A DNA stretch of 64,000 bases from Deferrisoma camini S3R1 (GTDB lineage: Bacteria; Desulfobacterota; Deferrisomatia; Deferrisomatales; Deferrisomataceae). The stretch covers positions 2,567,014 to 2,631,013 of the forward strand of contig NZ_JAFN01000001.1 in assembly GCF_000526155.1 (NCBI RefSeq). Reading direction: 5' to 3'. Both the position numbers and the translations under genes were made by a program. Shown here piece after piece: positions 29,724 to 37,804 of the stretch. The notes below the pieces were generated by a model. The model was not told the DNA's origin, did not search any database, and was given only the letters and a program-made list of their open reading frames with translations. Each line of letters begins with the position of its first letter. The first letter of the stretch is position 1.

Positions 29724-30149
29724 TTACAAGCCTTCCAGCCGGGGGCGTTCCCCCGTGGCCAGGTAGCGGCGCACGTCGGCCAGGATTCGGCCGTGGTCGA
29801 AGCACAGGGGTGGCAGGGCGTCCCACGGCCAGATCCGGGCCTGCCGGGCGTCGCTGCCCCCCAGGGGGGTGCCCTCCGCCCGGGCCAGGTACACCGTGGT
29901 GATCGTGTGGCGGCGGGGGTCCCGGCGGGGGTTGGAGTAGGTGAAGAACTGCTCCCGGAGCCGGACCTCCAGCCCGGTCTCCTCCCGGGCCTCCCGCACC
30001 GCAGCCTGCTCGAGTGACTCGCCCTCCTCCACGAATCCCCCCGGCAGAGCCCACCCCAGCGGGGGATTGCGGCGTTCCACCAGCACCACCCCCTCCTCCC
30101 GGAGGATCACCACGTCGACGGTGGGCAACGGGTTTCGGTACCGGCTCAC
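29724..30149 (-). CDS. NUDIX hydrolase
   Basis: About 141 residues with an intact Nudix box GGFVEEGESLEQAAVREAREETGLE (about residues 38-61), which binds Mg and cleaves nucleoside diphosphates linked to other moieties. The ending LCFDHGRILADVRRYLATGE resembles ADP-ribose/NADH-type or NrtR-like Nudix proteins; the substrate is unknown. The GTG start overlaps the upstream sensor gene stop (GTGA). Confidence 0.92.
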   Translation of the reverse strand: MSRYRNPLPTVDVVILREEGVVLVERRNPPLGWALPGGFVEEGESLEQAAVREAREETGLEVRLREQFFTYSNPRRDPRRHTITTVYLARAEGTPLGGSDARQARIWPWDALPPLCFDHGRILADVRRYLATGERPRLEGL

Positions 30150-31837
30150 CCCTGGGCTTCCTTGGTGCGTTCGTTGACGGCCGCGAAGAACTCCTCGGCG
30201 TTCGCCCCCTCCGCCCGACGGTACTCCCCCCACCCCGCGGCGAACCGCAACCGGCCCTCCGGCAGCGCCTCCTCGCCCGGGTAGGACTCCTCCTCGAGGG
30301 CCGCCAGCAGGTCGGCCGCCCGCTCCCGTGCGGTCTCGGCGTCGGCCCCCGGCATCAGCACGGCAAAGGTGGACCCGAAGCACCGGCCGATCACGTCCTT
30401 GGGCATGCTGCGCTCCCGGATGATCTCGGCCACCCGCCGTAGCACCTCGTCGCCGTGCTTGTGGCCCAGGCGCTCGTTGTACTGGGCGAAGTTGTCGATC
30501 CGGACCACCAACAGACCCAACGCGGTGCCGGCCAGCCGGGCCCGGTCGATCTCGCCCTGCAGCAGCTTCTTGAAGTGGAAGAAGGTGAACAGCTGGGTCA
30601 GGTGGTCCGTGACCTCCAGCTCGTCGGCGTAGAGCTTGAGCTGCTGGTACAGCCGGGCGTTCTCGATCGCCACCGCCGCCTGGCTGGTGAACAGCTCCAC
30701 GGTCTCGATCACCTCCGGCGGGATCGGCCGCTTGCTGATCTGGTTGTCCACCGCCACCACCCCCACGCAGTCGCTCTCGACGATCATGGGGATCACGATG
30801 AAACTGCGGCTGCGCAGCGCGCGGATCTCGTCATAGGGGGGCTGCAGCCGCAGGTCGGGGGGCAGCTCCCGCGCGTTCTCCACCCGGTAGGTGCGTTTCT
30901 GCAGGAACGCCTGGGCGATCACCCCACCCCCCGGCCCCAGGGGCAGGCGAATCTCCTCCGGCGACTCGTCCTGGTTGCCGAACGCGCCCTTGCACTCCAG
31001 CACCGTGCGCTCCGGGTTGGGGAGGAACAGGAAGATTCGGTCGAGCCCCAGCACCTCGTGGGCCGCCCCCAGAATGGTCCGGATCCGGTCCTCCAGGGCC
31101 AGCGTCCGCTGCATGCCCACCGAGACCTCGTGGAGCTTTCTGAGGTTGCGGTTCGCCGCCTCCACCCGGGCCAGCAGGTCCAACCGCTCCCGGTAGAACG
31201 GCTTGATCACGAACGAGATGGACAGGGCCGTGCTAAGCAGAATGGACAACCCCAGCACCCCGCAGGTCAACAGCACGTACTTCTTGAGGCTCGCCGCCAC
31301 GCTGCTCGAGGAGGCGTAGGGCTCGTCCACCGCCACCACCCACCCCCGGTCCCGGAGCACCCGGAACGCCACCATCCGGGGCTCCCCGAACAGGGTGGCC
31401 AACCCAATGCCCTCTTCGTAGTCCCCCACCGCCTCGGCGAGCCGGAGCCGGTTCCCCCGCCCCCGTTCCCCGAGGGTCTCCAGGGGCTTGCGGGCGGCCA
31501 ACAGCTCCACCTCGAGCCCCCCCAGGTCCTGGGCGTCCCCCATGGCCGCGGGGGCCGCGATCACCCGCCCCTGCCGGTCGAGCACCCACGCCGAGCCGGC
31601 CCGGCGCAGCCGGTTGCGCAACACCACCCGCGACAGGTCGGACTCCGCCGTGGACGCCCCCGCCACCTCCTCCACGATCCGAGCCAACTCGGAGGCCTCG
31701 GCCCGCAGCCGGGCCTTCACCTCGTCCTCGCTCAGCTTCGTGACCACCGCGCCCACCACCAGCGCGGCCAGGGCCACGATGGCGGCGGACACGAGGATCA
31801 GCCGGACGCCCAAGCCCGTGGGAACCTTTTCGGCCAT
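30146..31837 (-). CDS. Membrane sensor with GAF and degenerate GGDEF domains
   Basis: 563 residues: membrane segment (about 12-32), periplasmic sensory region (35-185, Cache-like), second membrane segment (190-212), GAF domain (about 230-400) and a C-terminal GGDEF fold (about 405-560). The fold shows LGHKHGDEVLRRVAEIIRE, but the signature loop is RCFGSTFAVLM instead of R(Y/F)GGDEF, so the catalytic acid residues are missing and diguanylate cyclase activity is unlikely. It may bind GTP or c-di-GMP or act by protein contact. It lies downstream of the cytochrome operon after a 193-bp repeat-containing gap. Confidence 0.88.
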   Translation of the reverse strand: MAEKVPTGLGVRLILVSAAIVALAALVVGAVVTKLSEDEVKARLRAEASELARIVEEVAGASTAESDLSRVVLRNRLRRAGSAWVLDRQGRVIAAPAAMGDAQDLGGLEVELLAARKPLETLGERGRGNRLRLAEAVGDYEEGIGLATLFGEPRMVAFRVLRDRGWVVAVDEPYASSSSVAASLKKYVLLTCGVLGLSILLSTALSISFVIKPFYRERLDLLARVEAANRNLRKLHEVSVGMQRTLALEDRIRTILGAAHEVLGLDRIFLFLPNPERTVLECKGAFGNQDESPEEIRLPLGPGGGVIAQAFLQKRTYRVENARELPPDLRLQPPYDEIRALRSRSFIVIPMIVESDCVGVVAVDNQISKRPIPPEVIETVELFTSQAAVAIENARLYQQLKLYADELEVTDHLTQLFTFFHFKKLLQGEIDRARLAGTALGLLVVRIDNFAQYNERLGHKHGDEVLRRVAEIIRERSMPKDVIGRCFGSTFAVLMPGADAETARERAADLLAALEEESYPGEEALPEGRLRFAAGWGEYRRAEGANAEEFFAAVNERTKEAQG

Positions 31838-32030: not shown

Positions 32031-33581
32031 TCACATCTGGTGGCATCCGGCACAGCCCCCCGGGACCGTGGCCATCCGGTCGCTGTCCGAGCCGTGGGGG
32101 TCGTGGCAGGTCAAGCAGGTCAGGTTCCCGTTCGGATCCAGCCGCATGCCCGGCACGAGGAACTTGGGCGGACGACCCACCGGGTGTTTGTGACGGGCCA
32201 AGGTCTCGTCGTCGTGGCACCGTCGGCACAGGGCCTCGCCCACGCCCTTCAAGAAATACTTGGGGTTGTCCGACGAATGGGGATCGTGGCATCCGGAGCA
32301 GTTGCCCTCGGCAAACGGCTTGTGGAGCACGAACCGGTTCATCTTCTCCTTCATGTTCTCGTGGCAGGACAGGCACAGGTCCCCCTGGGGGAGCCGCAGC
32401 TGGAACTTGAACGGCGAACCGTGGGGGCTGTGGCACACCGTGCAAAACCCCATCGCCACCGGCCCGTGTACGTTGGTCCGGGTGAACTGGGCCCGAATGT
32501 CGTCGTGGCAGGTGAAGCACAGGTCGGCCCCCTGGTTCAACAGGTCGTACTTGTGCGGCTTGCTCGTGAAGTCGTGGCAGGGGCTGCAGCCTCCGACCGG
32601 AATCGGACCGTGGACCCAGGTCTGGTCGGTCAGGTATCCGTGGCACCGCAGGCAGAACGTGGTGATCACCGCCACCTCGCCCCCGCCCTCGGGCTCCATC
32701 TGGTGACACCGCCGGCACCGGTCCTCGTGGTCCGAGGTGTGGAACTGGAACTCGGGGAACGGCGACTGGAGCCCCTCTCCCATCATCGGCTCCCGAAACA
32801 GCACGATCGCCAGGTTTCCCTGTCCCCCGTCCTCCTCGGGGTATCGGATCTCGATGTAGTTGGACCCCAGGCTCAACGGGGTGCGAACCCAGAACATCTT
32901 GCCGTAGTTCTTGGCCTCCCTCTCGCTTCCCCCGTTCAACCGCAGGATGAACGGCCCCTTGCGCCCTCCCGTCAGCCCGACCACCGAGATGGAGTCCTGG
33001 TAGGTCTTGGTGAAGTTGTCCGGCGTCAACAGCACCACGTTCTCCGCCGCCCCACCCATCTGGCCCGCGGTGGCCCCCTCCTCCACCACCCGGCGTACGG
33101 CCTCCTCCAGCTCGTTCCAACGGCCCTCGTTGTACCCCACCACGGTCTGGACGATCTCGCCGTTGCGGTCGACCAACACGTAGGTGGGCAGCGTCGTCAC
33201 CTGGAAGGCGCGGCTGATCTTGAGGTTCAGATCCAGCACCACGGGGAACGACAGCATGTCCTTGAACTGGCCGTAGAACCGCCGCACCCGGGCCACGTTG
33301 TAGGTGTCCAGGTTGATCCCCACCACCCGAAGCTTGTCGGCCCCGTGACGGTTCTGCAGATTGACCAGGCGCGGGAGGGACTGCACGCAGCTGGAGCAGT
33401 AGATGGAGCCGAAGTCCAGCAGGATGGGAACCCTGCCCAGGTAGTCCCGGAGGTCAAACGTCTCACCGGGCAGCGTCATTCCTGTGAAAGGCTGCACTTT
33501 CTCGGCCGAAAACGCGGGCGTTCCCGCGGCCACGAGCAGCCCCAGGCACACCCACCCGACGGAACGACGCCACCGGCCCAT
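32031..33581 (-). CDS. Thioredoxin-decaheme cytochrome c fusion protein
   Basis: 516 residues. A signal peptide (about 1-26) exports it. Residues about 30-170 are a TlpA/thioredoxin-like domain with a CSSC redox motif (near 62) and the cis-proline region TLPTYVLVD. A beta-rich linker follows, then from about 285 to the end ten CXXCH heme motifs (CRRCH, CLRCH, CSPCH, CFTCH, CTVCH, CLSCH, CSGCH, CRRCH, CLTCH, CAGCH), several in doubled CxxCH...HG(P/S) repeats typical of doubled-CXXCH cytochromes. It would couple thiol-disulfide chemistry to heme electron transfer in the periplasm or at the outer membrane. The gene starts 3 bases after the TlpA gene. Confidence 0.93.
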   Translation of the reverse strand: MGRWRRSVGWVCLGLLVAAGTPAFSAEKVQPFTGMTLPGETFDLRDYLGRVPILLDFGSIYCSSCVQSLPRLVNLQNRHGADKLRVVGINLDTYNVARVRRFYGQFKDMLSFPVVLDLNLKISRAFQVTTLPTYVLVDRNGEIVQTVVGYNEGRWNELEEAVRRVVEEGATAGQMGGAAENVVLLTPDNFTKTYQDSISVVGLTGGRKGPFILRLNGGSEREAKNYGKMFWVRTPLSLGSNYIEIRYPEEDGGQGNLAIVLFREPMMGEGLQSPFPEFQFHTSDHEDRCRRCHQMEPEGGGEVAVITTFCLRCHGYLTDQTWVHGPIPVGGCSPCHDFTSKPHKYDLLNQGADLCFTCHDDIRAQFTRTNVHGPVAMGFCTVCHSPHGSPFKFQLRLPQGDLCLSCHENMKEKMNRFVLHKPFAEGNCSGCHDPHSSDNPKYFLKGVGEALCRRCHDDETLARHKHPVGRPPKFLVPGMRLDPNGNLTCLTCHDPHGSDSDRMATVPGGCAGCHQM

Positions 33582-33584
33582 CGA

Positions 33585-34160
33585 TCACCGCCCCAGGGCT
33601 TTCCGGATCTCGTTCTCCAGCACTTCCTTGTCCGTGAGGCCCACCTCGGCAAAGGCGATCTTGCCGTCGCGGCCCACCAGGTACAGGGTGGGGGTGCCGG
33701 CCACACCGTAGGGGTCGGCCACCACGAAGGATTCGTCCGGGGCCAGTTTGTCGATGAACACCCGGAACTTGTACCCCTGCTGCTTCACGAGGCCCACGAT
33801 GCTCTTCTTCATCGGCTCGCCGTCCAGGGCCACGGCGATCACCTCGAACCCCTTGTCCCGATACTCCTCGTAGAGCCGTTCGATCAACGGCATCTCGGCC
33901 TTGCACGGCTCGCAGAAGATCGACCAGAACACCAGCAGGTGCACCTTCTGTGGGACCTCTTTCGAGAGCTGAAACGAGCGGCCCTCGATGTCCTCCAACG
34001 TGAAGTCCGGGGCCTTGTCCCCGGGCTTGAGCATCTCGATGTCCCCGATCATGGGGATATCGAGGGGGGTCATCTTCTTCTGTTCCGCGATCGCGCCAGA
34101 GCTCCAAAGCGCCACCGCCCCGATCACGACGAGCAGAGTCTGCAGGGATTTCCGTGCCAT
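33585..34160 (-). CDS. TlpA-family thiol-disulfide oxidoreductase
   Basis: 191 residues with a signal peptide (about 1-25) and a thioredoxin fold: PGDKAPDFTLEDIEG, active-site CEPC in FWSIFCEPCKAEMP, and cis-proline GVAGTPTLYLV. TlpA/ResA-type proteins reduce apocytochrome CXXCH cysteines or other periplasmic disulfides, which fits its place directly before a ten-heme cytochrome. Confidence 0.93.
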   Translation of the reverse strand: MARKSLQTLLVVIGAVALWSSGAIAEQKKMTPLDIPMIGDIEMLKPGDKAPDFTLEDIEGRSFQLSKEVPQKVHLLVFWSIFCEPCKAEMPLIERLYEEYRDKGFEVIAVALDGEPMKKSIVGLVKQQGYKFRVFIDKLAPDESFVVADPYGVAGTPTLYLVGRDGKIAFAEVGLTDKEVLENEIRKALGR

Positions 34161-34190: not shown

Positions 34191-35138
34191 TCACTGCCGT
34201 TCGAACTTGAGTACGCGCCGGCCGGCCCGGTCCGCCACGTACACGTCCCAGTTCCGCAGTACGAAAAGCCCCGCCGGCTCGAACGCCTCCCCCTCGGCCG
34301 GCAGGATCTCGGCTATCTTCTCCCCCCGCCGGTCCAGGACCCAAATCTTTCCGGTGGCGCGGTCCGAAAGGAACATCCGGTAGAACGTGGGCTCCACCAC
34401 GACATCCTCGACCTGCGCCCCCTCGGGAAGCCACGACGAGAGATCGAGGGTCTCCTCCCACTCTCCGTCCAGGTCGAACCGCTCCAGACGCCGCCATCCC
34501 CGGCTCAGCACCCACAGGCCGCCGCGGCCTTCCGGAGTGTAGGCCACGATCACCGGCTTGCCCAGGTGGTCACGCCGCCTCCCGGTGCGGCGGTCCCACG
34601 AGGCCAGGAACGTGCCGTCGGGCCGGAACACCTGGACCCGTTCGTTGCCCGGGTCCGCCACGTAAAGACGGCCGCGGCGGTCGAACGTTACGTCGGCCGG
34701 GTGCCGAAACCGTCCGTCGCCCCCCCCCAGGCTGCCCAGAACGAAGGCCTCGTTCCCGGCCTCGTCCACCACCACCAGCCGGTGGTTGCCCGTGTCCACC
34801 ACCCACAGTCGACCGTCCGGCCCCCGGGCCAGGCGCTGGGGCCTCCGCAGACGCAGATCCCCGGAGCCCCGGCTTCCCCCGAAGGTCCCCTGCCACCGTC
34901 CCGATCGGGCGAACCGCACCAACGCTTCCCGCTTTCGGTCCAGCACGGTCACGGTGCCGTCCCGATCCACGTCCACGTCCACGGGCTCGCGCAGCTCGTT
35001 GCGACCCCGGCCGTGCTCGCCGAACCCCTCAGCCGCCCTCCAGGACATCACCCGGGCCGAAGCCCATCCCCCCCAAACGATCACGAGGAGTCCGAGGGTG
35101 GCTCCCAAGCGAAGACGCCCCCGCGATGTATGACGCAT
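34191..35138 (-). CDS. Exported NHL-repeat (beta-propeller) protein
   Basis: 315 residues with an N-terminal hydrophobic signal or anchor (about 10-28) and at least five to six NHL-type repeats, seen as LREPVDVDVDRDGTV, LRRPQRLARGPDGRLWVVD, FRHPADVTFDRRGRLYVAD, FEPAGLFVLRNWDVYVAD. A six-bladed propeller for binding or scaffolding is expected. NHL proteins are frequently encoded beside multiheme cytochromes in metal-reducing deltaproteobacteria. Confidence 0.88.
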   Translation of the reverse strand: MRHTSRGRLRLGATLGLLVIVWGGWASARVMSWRAAEGFGEHGRGRNELREPVDVDVDRDGTVTVLDRKREALVRFARSGRWQGTFGGSRGSGDLRLRRPQRLARGPDGRLWVVDTGNHRLVVVDEAGNEAFVLGSLGGGDGRFRHPADVTFDRRGRLYVADPGNERVQVFRPDGTFLASWDRRTGRRRDHLGKPVIVAYTPEGRGGLWVLSRGWRRLERFDLDGEWEETLDLSSWLPEGAQVEDVVVEPTFYRMFLSDRATGKIWVLDRRGEKIAEILPAEGEAFEPAGLFVLRNWDVYVADRAGRRVLKFERQ

Positions 35139-35160: not shown

Positions 35161-35910
35161 CTACTTCGGCTTCACCTTGAGGAGGATCTCTTCCGTCTGC
35201 TTCTCTGGGGCCATCTCGGTCTCGGCGGGCTTTGCCTCCTCGGCCGCCGGTGCGCCCTCTTCTCCGGCCAGCTCCCGGGCCTTGGCCGCTTCCAGCATAC
35301 GCTGGACCTCGGCCTCCCGAGCCTTGCGGAACTCGGAGTCCAGGCGGGCGACCAACCGGGCCACCCCCCGGGCCGCCACGGCGTTGGGGGACGGCCCCTG
35401 GTTCACCCCGAGGATCTCGCCCAGGGTCGTGCTGGACTTGGCATAGGTCCGGCCGCTCCACAGGATGTCCCCGTTCTCGGTGTCCACCATGTTGACCTGG
35501 AGCGCGAACTCCACGATCTCCGAGTTCTCCTCCCGGCCGTACACCAGGAGGTCGCCCAGGATCAAGGCCTGGGCCTGGAGCTCCTCACCGATCTTGCGCA
35601 CGATCTCCCGATCGAGCCCCTCGGTGTTCCGCAGCTTGAGCTTCTTCATGAGCTCGTTCACGTACCGGGGCTCCTCCACCTGTTCGAAGGTGCCGCGGTT
35701 CAAGAGCTCTTGCAAAAACAGGTTTTCCGCAATCTTGGGCGCCTGCGCCCCCTCCACCACGCTGTCGAAGGGCAGCACCGCAACCTTCTTGATATTACCG
35801 TACTGGCGTTGGCCGGTGGGGGGCTTGACGTAGGTCTTCACCGACGCCCCCGCGCATCCCATCATGGTGGCCAGCACGATCGCGCCTGCCGCCCACAGTG
35901 TCCGACGCAT
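35161..35910 (-). CDS. Exported lipoprotein (GNA1162/CsgG-like)
   Basis: 249 residues. The signal peptide ends in a lipobox (ATMMGC, Cys about residue 19), so the protein is lipid-anchored. Residues 35-190 with VAVLPFDSV and GDLLVYGRE resemble the CsgG/GNA1162 (DUF799) fold of outer-membrane-associated lipoproteins. The C-terminal about 60 residues are Ala/Glu-rich low-complexity helix. The ATG at 35910 follows GAGGAGGAG; a longer frame upstream is rejected. Confidence 0.82.
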   Translation of the reverse strand: MRRTLWAAGAIVLATMMGCAGASVKTYVKPPTGQRQYGNIKKVAVLPFDSVVEGAQAPKIAENLFLQELLNRGTFEQVEEPRYVNELMKKLKLRNTEGLDREIVRKIGEELQAQALILGDLLVYGREENSEIVEFALQVNMVDTENGDILWSGRTYAKSSTTLGEILGVNQGPSPNAVAARGVARLVARLDSEFRKAREAEVQRMLEAAKARELAGEEGAPAAEEAKPAETEMAPEKQTEEILLKVKPK

Positions 35911-35980
35911 GATGTCTCCTCCTCGTCTCATGGGGTCCTCGGATTCCTTCGTCTCACGCCGAGGAACTGGCGTCACCTTA

Positions 35981-37804
35981 TCAGAACTGCCCCTGCACCT
36001 CAATCAGGTACCGGTGGGTGTCCCGCCGGTCCCCTTCGAGCTGTTGATCCAGCTCCCACTCAAAATTCACGGACAACAACCCCTCCAAGAACTCCGCCGA
36101 CAGGGTGATCTGATGGTTCCGGGTGTCCTCCGCCTCGCTCTTCTTATCGAGCTGATACTCATAGCTCAGATCGTACTGATCAAAGATCGTCCAGTCGTAG
36201 GAGGCCGAGTACGTATAGTCGACCGTGGGACCCTGATCATCTTCGCTCTCGTCCGATGCCTTGCGCGTCAAACTGAGCTCCAAGCCCATTCCATCGAAAA
36301 AATCCGTAAAAGAGAGGGTCACATCGGTGTCGTCGTCCCGCCGAATCGTCGACTTTCCTTCCGCCGGGTCCGTATGCGTCCGGGTGTACGTGTGATCGAG
36401 GCTCAGCGTCGTCACATCGCCCAGGGTGAGCTCGTACTGGATGCCCACCTCCCACTGCCGCTCCACGTCTACCGTATCGGTCAGGAGATCCTCGTCCTCG
36501 GTGTAGGTGTAGTCCGGGGTGAGGGTGAGATTGGGCAGTCCCTCGTACGACAGGGTGAACTCCAGGTCCCAGTTGCGCTCGTTGGTGCTTCGCTCGCCGT
36601 TCTCGGTGGTCTGGTTCCAGGTCCGGGTGACGGTGAAGGCGACCTGATCGTTCCAGAACGAGCTGTCCAACTGGATCTCCCAGGTATCGTCCAGGGTGTC
36701 GTCGGTGGCCTGGGTCGGGTCCGCGAACCACTCGATCTGGTCGCTGCGATCGAACGAGGGAGAGATCGTGATGTTTTCGAGGGGGCTGAAGTCCAGGGCC
36801 GCCGAGTAGTCCCGCGTGATCGAGTAGGAACCGGGCTCGGCCCCCCGGGTGTCCTTGCGCTCGTCCGAGTAGTCCAGATCGATGTCGATCGTGTCCGTGA
36901 GGGACCGGCCGTAGGAGATCTCCCCGGTCCAGGTGTCGGTGACCTCCACCGGCGCCGCCTGCTCCAGGTCCTTGTCCCAATCGATCTCCCGGTCGAGGCT
37001 CAGCTCCAGATCGTCCAGCGGATCGAACGTGATCTGGGCCTGAACGTTGTTCTTCAGGCTGTCGTCACGCTGCAGCACGTCCCCGTCGTCGGAGAGCGTC
37101 AGGGACTGCTGGCGCTCGTTGGTCCACTGGGCCTCCAGCTTGAACCGGTCGCCGAACTCCCGGTCGAACGAGATGTCCACGCTGTAGTCCCGGTCTTCCG
37201 TGTCCGAGTCGGGGTTGATCTGGTCGTCGGTGGTGTCCCTGCGGACATCGAACGACAGATCGAGCAGGTCCCACAACGCGTAATCGAGGCTGGCCTCCCG
37301 CGAGGTGTCCACCGTCTGGGTCACCCCCCCCTCTTTGGAGAGGTCGCGTTGGAAACTCAGCTTGAGGTCGGGTAGGGCCTCGCCCGCGGGCTCCATGGTG
37401 AGCTCGGCCTGCCAGGAGTCGTCCCGGGTCGTCTCCACCTCGGGGTCGTGGGAGGACTTCTCGGAGGTTTCCCAACTCCCCGTGAGGGTCCACCAAGGCC
37501 CCTGCAGCTCCATCTCCACGGAGGGCTGGACCTCGCGGGTGTCGTAGTCGGGTTCGTTGATCTCGTCGGTGATGTCGAGACCGAGGTCGAGGGTGAAGGT
37601 GAGGGTGGGATGGATCTGGAGCTCGTAGGAGATGGAGTAGGACTGGTCCACCGTCTCGGTGGTGTCGCTCCCCTCCGCCGTCACGTCGGTTCGGCGCTCG
37701 TCCGAGACGGAGGCGTCCACGGACCAGGTCGCGGCACGGGAGACTCCCGGGGCCAGGGCGGCCAGGCACACAAGTGCAATCGCGGAAAGCCGGGGCTGGG
37801 GCAT
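35981..37804 (-). CDS. Large outer-membrane beta-barrel protein (porin-like)
   Basis: About 607 residues. After the signal peptide (LSAIALVCLAALAPGVSRA) almost the entire protein is alternating beta-strand sequence with aromatic strand ends and Asp/Glu/Thr-rich turns (for example WTLTGSWETS, YSVDISFDREF, LSYEYQLDKK), ending in a terminal phenylalanine (EVQGQF), the outer-membrane assembly signal. It is very acidic, with no cysteine in the barrel. As first gene of an operon with a lipoprotein and a multiheme cytochrome it could be the porin of an electron conduit; no family name is claimed. ATG 37804 is chosen because it begins the signal peptide. Confidence 0.82.
   Translation of the reverse strand: MPQPRLSAIALVCLAALAPGVSRAATWSVDASVSDERRTDVTAEGSDTTETVDQSYSISYELQIHPTLTFTLDLGLDITDEINEPDYDTREVQPSVEMELQGPWWTLTGSWETSEKSSHDPEVETTRDDSWQAELTMEPAGEALPDLKLSFQRDLSKEGGVTQTVDTSREASLDYALWDLLDLSFDVRRDTTDDQINPDSDTEDRDYSVDISFDREFGDRFKLEAQWTNERQQSLTLSDDGDVLQRDDSLKNNVQAQITFDPLDDLELSLDREIDWDKDLEQAAPVEVTDTWTGEISYGRSLTDTIDIDLDYSDERKDTRGAEPGSYSITRDYSAALDFSPLENITISPSFDRSDQIEWFADPTQATDDTLDDTWEIQLDSSFWNDQVAFTVTRTWNQTTENGERSTNERNWDLEFTLSYEGLPNLTLTPDYTYTEDEDLLTDTVDVERQWEVGIQYELTLGDVTTLSLDHTYTRTHTDPAEGKSTIRRDDDTDVTLSFTDFFDGMGLELSLTRKASDESEDDQGPTVDYTYSASYDWTIFDQYDLSYEYQLDKKSEAEDTRNHQITLSAEFLEGLLSVNFEWELDQQLEGDRRDTHRYLIEVQGQF

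Follow-up and report, generated by a model that had tools for sequence, protein, structure and literature searches.

A gene of Deferrisoma camini S3R1 raises the question of what a thioredoxin domain does when it is joined to a ten-heme cytochrome c. In the periplasm, thiol-disulfide chemistry and multiheme electron transport are usually seen as two distinct systems whose sole point of contact is cytochrome assembly. The gene lies in a 64,000-nucleotide stretch of DNA, analysed here as a whole and referred to as the window.

Anatomy of the fusion gene

The open reading frame at 32031-33581 is read from the minus strand, begins with ATG and encodes 516 amino acids without interruption. A sequence-only reading had placed a thioredoxin domain and ten heme sites in one exported chain at exactly these coordinates, with no strand given, and this is borne out by a Redoxin domain, a Paired_CXXCH_1 domain and a signal peptide in one frame (Table 1). 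Inspection of the N-terminus found no lipobox, and in the model preferred below we propose a periplasmic or outer-membrane-associated location.

Table 1. Positions of the fusion domains, neighbouring genes and related loci discussed in the text (numbers without a locus prefix are window positions).
Feature	Position	Strand	Basis or remark
Sec-type signal peptide, residues 1-26	33504..33581	-	Inspection: MGRWRR, hydrophobic stretch, AFSA/E
TlpA/ResA/Redoxin thioredoxin domain, residues 27-170	33072..33503	-	PF08534; best PDB matches ResA, DsbE-like
CSSC redox motif, residues 62-65, within FGSIYCSSC	33387..33398	-	Both Cys in all operonic copies
Ig-like linker, Glucodextran_B-like, residues ~181-270	32772..33041	-	Orthologue matches to PF09136
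Decaheme doubled-CXXCH domain, residues 281-516	32034..32741	-	PF09699; invariant columns
Membrane sensor, weak dCache + GAF + degenerate GGDEF (RCFGSTF replacing GGDEF)	30146..31837	-	Domain matches
TlpA191, stand-alone ResA-like TlpA (CEPC, Glu three residues on)	33585..34160	-	3 bp upstream of fusion
NHL-repeat beta-propeller protein	34191..35138	-	PF01436, synteny
LpoB/CsgG-like lipoprotein, lipobox MMGC	35161..36003	-	Weak LpoB match below cut-off, synteny, lipobox by inspection
Predicted large outer-membrane beta-barrel, 607 aa, C-terminal Phe	35981..37804	-	Model, fold matches, amphipathy
TlpA tandem	G000:C1:2317.3-2318.4 kb = L103:12293-13423	+	First gene is one of two free paralogues
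Thioredoxin-less Ig-decaheme homologues, class-wide	L006, L100:9417-10571, L022-L026, L030, L031, L033
Cys-less fusion copies	L078:8482-10050; L112:5437-7155	-; -	Second copy = L090/L112

The N-terminal part matches Redoxin (PF08534) over residues 27-154 at 59.3 bits (Pfam cut-off 26.6), and with C62, C65 and the cis-Pro P132 it has the features of the TlpA/Redoxin fold. In the linker, orthologues of the fusion match Glucodextran_B (PF09136) just under the cut-off (E 2.9e-5 to 8e-4), and the window copy itself gives no match to this family. The C-terminal part is a doubled-CXXCH multiheme domain, scoring 134.6 bits for Paired_CXXCH_1 (PF09699; cut-off 20.6) and 129.1 bits for TIGR01905 (cut-off 25.2). 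Its ten CXXCH motifs place the heme His at 293, 314, 336, 359, 384, 407, 432, 456, 493 and 514, whereas composition-matched shuffles (n = 20,000) held a mean of 0.04 such motifs and a maximum of 2. Apart from one Cys within the signal peptide, every Cys of the protein belongs to the CSSC or to a heme site. The ten heme motifs and nine further His are invariant alignment columns of the decaheme part, consistent with hemes that would be mainly bis-His ligated.

By sequence, the closest solved cytochrome to the decaheme part is 6r2q_A (E 7.7e-19), which we take to be MtrA. Ten doubled-CXXCH hemes are shared with the DmsE/MtrA-type and GSU2203-type decahemes, from which the fusion differs by its extra N-terminal thioredoxin and Ig-like domains. 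The DmsE-type model TIGR03508 gives 80.5 bits against a cut-off of 192.2, which leaves the fusion outside that type, and the GSU2203-type NCBIfam model gives a clear but sub-cut-off 86.6 bits (cut-off 325). An AlphaFold2 model of the fusion, built on three near-identical rows, was unusable (pLDDT 33, pTM 0.32) and was not used. The earlier impression that this architecture is undescribed agrees with a literature search, chiefly of open-licence papers, which returned no thioredoxin-multiheme fusion.

The surrounding cluster and its distribution

All 12 genomes of the window's class encode the fusion (48-97% identity), every copy having ten CXXCH and YC[ST][ST]C. When 395 genomes of the phylum were searched with a profile, 19 carried it, seven of those from outside the class. 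Searching the class of one outside carrier gave matches in 10 of 26 genomes, new ones included, and another class of the phylum gave one in two genomes. The CxxC-bearing copies examined number 24, with 12 in the window's class and 12 outside it (11 genomes, one of which has two copies). Because the same continuous ten-CXXCH fusion recurs in every genome of the class and also beyond it within the phylum, it is one gene; two separate genes, the arrangement that would have spoken against the first reading, are ruled out, and a frameshift is likewise rejected. The nearest public relatives of the window are metagenome-assembled genomes. Viral contigs yielded no relatives, and plasmids gave single-domain matches only.

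The order of genes around the fusion is conserved as barrel, lipoprotein, NHL propeller, TlpA191 and fusion, usually followed by the degenerate-GGDEF sensor, and a NUDIX gene often trails the cluster downstream. TlpA191 lies directly upstream of the fusion in 24/24 CxxC-bearing copies, and the NHL, lipoprotein and barrel genes are present wherever contigs extend far enough, the last two being lost to contig ends in several loci. Upstream of the TlpA191 gene, the next intergenic gaps in the window are 30 and 22 bp. Loci outside the window's class have, by inspection, a PpiC/SurA-like gene between the lipoprotein and NHL genes. The lipoprotein gene keeps its place between the barrel and propeller genes, and its true start is probably internal to the called frame.

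TlpA191 carries both CcmG/ResA hallmarks, Pro inside the CXXC and the later Glu (CEPC..E); the CEPC was found by pattern in 18 of 19 rows, the nineteenth being a pattern miss in the signal region. A recent duplication of TlpA191 as the origin of the fused domain was rejected, the two being 25% identical compared with up to 40% for other TlpA paralogues of the genome. Among the exported operon proteins of the window, non-heme Cys pairs occur only in TlpA191 and the fusion: the barrel and NHL proteins have zero Cys, and those of the lipoprotein are one ahead of the likely start and the lipobox Cys. Apart from the fusion, no operon gene encodes a protein with multiple CXXCH. The whole cluster is a candidate outer-membrane electron-transfer system, and the open-licence literature searched contains no description of it.

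The sensor gene adjoins the fusion in most loci; within the window's class, three loci lack it there. Its degenerate GGDEF motif, with a constant RC, is found in 16/16 orthologues, and the product is probably a conserved pseudo-diguanylate cyclase. A gene found this regularly beside the fusion, its non-catalytic motif conserved, would suit a redox switch or sensor, in which the state of the CxxC would set decaheme docking or conductance and perhaps signal to the GGDEF protein. However, the periplasmic domain of that protein is Cys-free in 14/16 orthologues, which makes direct disulfide signalling to it unlikely, and we consider a switch quite improbable overall.

The 607-aa product is predicted to be a large outer-membrane barrel of uncertain strand number, probably ~26-30. 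Its C-terminal Phe is invariant in 12 homologues, and it shows 21-27 amphipathic peaks, compared with 11-14 in shuffles. A model of moderate confidence from a shallow alignment (pLDDT 59.5), drawn on for strand count and fold class alone, has about 30 strands and matches generic porin and TonB-dependent receptor folds; MtrB is not among the fold matches listed, which is no evidence against MtrB likeness. The porin-cytochrome conduits MtrCAB and Omb-Oma-Omc combine a large outer-membrane barrel with a multiheme cytochrome; in the window a predicted barrel is encoded in one operon with a decaheme that has MtrA as its closest solved sequence. The window cluster differs in having no surface multiheme or other redox lipoprotein (the sole lipoprotein recognised is LpoB-like and heme-free), and in a genome with zero matches to MtrB_PioB (PF11854), a family that defines the Mtr/Pio type only and not all conduits. 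It differs further in a cytochrome fused to thioredoxin and Ig-like domains, with TlpA, NHL and degenerate GGDEF partners. Because the operon has no second multiheme protein, it falls outside the standard definition of a porin-cytochrome conduit.

The CxxC pair and relatives of the fused domain

Both Cys of the fused domain are present in all 24 operonic copies and the inner residues are S or T (CSSC, CSTC or CTTC), which argues that the CxxC is chemically active. Fusions of genus g34 (G037, G402) have lost both: STFSTNG or STYSLVS replaces the motif, and the fold and all ten CXXCH are kept. None of the operon genes was found within the ~17-19 kb stretches around these two copies, so that, among the copies read, the CxxC is conserved only within the cluster. 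A third g34 copy (L113) ends before the thioredoxin region and was left out of the Cys reading; with one clade and two readable copies, the loss may be a single evolutionary event. A few kb at most separate each Cys-less copy from a gene for a 12-heme protein on the other strand.

Retention of the fold after loss of the Cys would be expected of a docking domain, in which the thioredoxin fold serves chiefly as a binding module and the disulfide is structural, and the change from Trp to Gly by the active site likewise departs from a normal thioredoxin. Against it, the operonic Cys pair is strict across several families while the inner residues vary, and TlpA191 adjoins every CxxC-bearing copy. 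Docking as the chief function is, in our judgement, the least probable of the explanations weighed here.

A thioredoxin-less homologue in the same genome (L006, 405 aa), together with its relatives across the class, aligns end-to-end with residues 174-516 of the fusion (hhalign probability 100%); in the window's genome it is encoded outside the barrel operon. The thioredoxin domain therefore looks as if it was either gained by an Ig-decaheme protein or lost from one.

The closest families of the fused domain are ResA, TlpA and DsbE, and CcmG/ResA/TlpA oxidoreductases share with it the fold, the CXXC, the cis-Pro loop and export. This kinship suits a built-in maturation aid, in which the thioredoxin domain, acting in the manner of CcmG/ResA or of an isomerase, would keep the CXXCH thiols of its own chain and those of sister cytochromes reduced or correctly paired and TlpA191 would reset it. 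The genome (G000) is also very heme-rich, with 670 occurrences of a CXXCH-type DNA pattern compared with 120 for the reversed-pattern control. However, characterised CcmG proteins that act in maturation alone have Pro inside the CXXC and Glu three positions on (PMC5909903), and the operonic fused domains, with no Pro in CSSC, CSTC or CTTC, with Ser68 in place of Glu at +3, with Gly in place of Trp at -4 and with ten attached heme motifs, depart from the dedicated CcmG/ResA type. These missing hallmarks lower the maturation reading but do not remove it, since Helicobacter pylori HP0377 has neither the Pro nor the Glu and yet functions both in maturation (as CcmG) and as an isomerase (PMC5909903).

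The sequence-only reading had suggested that the domain helps to attach its own hemes and had proposed a comparison with natural homologues that have lost the CxxC. That comparison was run, and in the one clade concerned the ten heme motifs (motifs read, not attached hemes) persist in both Cys-less proteins, so that heme attachment there seems not to need the CxxC. Together with the absent Pro and Glu, this weakens the suggestion. The thioredoxin-less decahemes keep all ten motifs as well, cytochrome c assembly (PF01578) genes exist elsewhere in the genome, and a one-to-one covalent tether is a strange way to build a general chaperone. We regard a maturation aid as possible but on the unlikely side.

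The genome elsewhere encodes several such PF01578 proteins, two DsbD/CcdA-type transporters and some two dozen TlpA-like matches. At L102:9631-11910 (-), a 13-heme cytochrome and genes for cytochrome c assembly lie beside two TlpA-like proteins, of which one or both seem to lack the CxxC. Gly58 and Ser68 of the fusion correspond to Trp and Glu in the close free paralogues of the fused domain (DFWSIYCVACLKE and DFWSIYCVSCIQE), and the two residues may represent a specialisation beside the active site. One of the paralogues, a SIYCVSC TlpA with 34% identity to the fused domain, is followed in a two-gene tandem by a TlpA191 homologue (42%). The recurrence of both TlpA types as a stand-alone tandem points to a joint function. 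The same 20-kb stretch (L103) encodes 21-heme and 9-heme proteins.

A possible thiol-to-heme relay

Of the four explanations weighed, we favour a thiol-to-heme redox relay with TlpA191 as partner; we hold it tentatively, at somewhat less than an even chance. In this relay, TlpA191 and the fused domain would swap electrons by thiol-disulfide exchange, the fused domain would pass electrons to, or take them from, the nearest heme in one-electron steps, and the decaheme would link onward to an operon complex of the predicted barrel, the lipoprotein and the NHL propeller. The coupling of CxxC and heme, the direction of electron flow, the partnership with TlpA191 and any crossing of the outer membrane are inferences from sequence and gene order. 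Electron transfer between protein thiols and extracellular acceptors, the other role suggested by the sequence-only reading, is a conjecture for a chain that has no lipobox and whose barrel partner is predicted.

Several lines of evidence favour the relay: the CxxC and an adjacent TlpA191 occur together in every operonic copy, the readable non-operonic copies have lost both Cys and kept the ten CXXCH, and the same two TlpA types form a tandem of their own. The confinement of non-heme Cys pairs to TlpA191 and the fusion, the Gly58/Ser68 change close to the active site, and the invariance of the heme motifs and nine His, as in an intact wire, point the same way. Against the relay, the pattern of CxxC conservation would also be expected of a chaperone or of a redox switch. 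Direct reduction or oxidation of a thioredoxin-type disulfide by a heme is chemically awkward, pairing one-electron with two-electron chemistry, and we know of no characterised case.

The closest published themes are Geobacter ExtHIJKL (PMC6148476) and a seep-SRB operon (PMC5539420). ExtHIJKL is a putative conduit in which a barrel and a pentaheme cytochrome are accompanied by a sulfur-active lipoprotein, a rhodanese; the window has a predicted barrel and a multiheme cytochrome, and the sections consulted describe no thioredoxin fused to the wire (PMC6148476). The seep-SRB operon encodes a six-bladed propeller and a PPIase with 16- and 26-heme cytochromes, and resembles the present cluster as found outside the window's class, where the PpiC/SurA-like gene occurs; a thioredoxin fusion is not described in the parts consulted (PMC5539420). 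Thioredoxin-like and NHL modules are also associated in NHLRC2 and SOQ1, which are weak PDB matches of the thioredoxin part, but there they form one heme-free chain and here they are neighbouring genes.

A more far-reaching form of the relay is a thiol-wired conduit, in which a two-step TlpA relay would feed or drain the ten-heme wire via the fused thioredoxin and through the outer-membrane barrel. Periplasmic protein dithiols and disulfides, or the sulfur compounds they handle, may then be tied to the outside. We judge this conduit, its substrates included, to be rather unlikely.

The place of the fusion in a conserved operon with a likely barrel means that whether hemes drive or drain a protein dithiol can be tested directly, and the natural Cys-less and thioredoxin-less variants serve as built-in controls. 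For the phylum, this undescribed multi-gene cluster is a further candidate for electron transfer at the outer membrane, in which the fusion may tie protein thiol chemistry to cell-surface electron transport.
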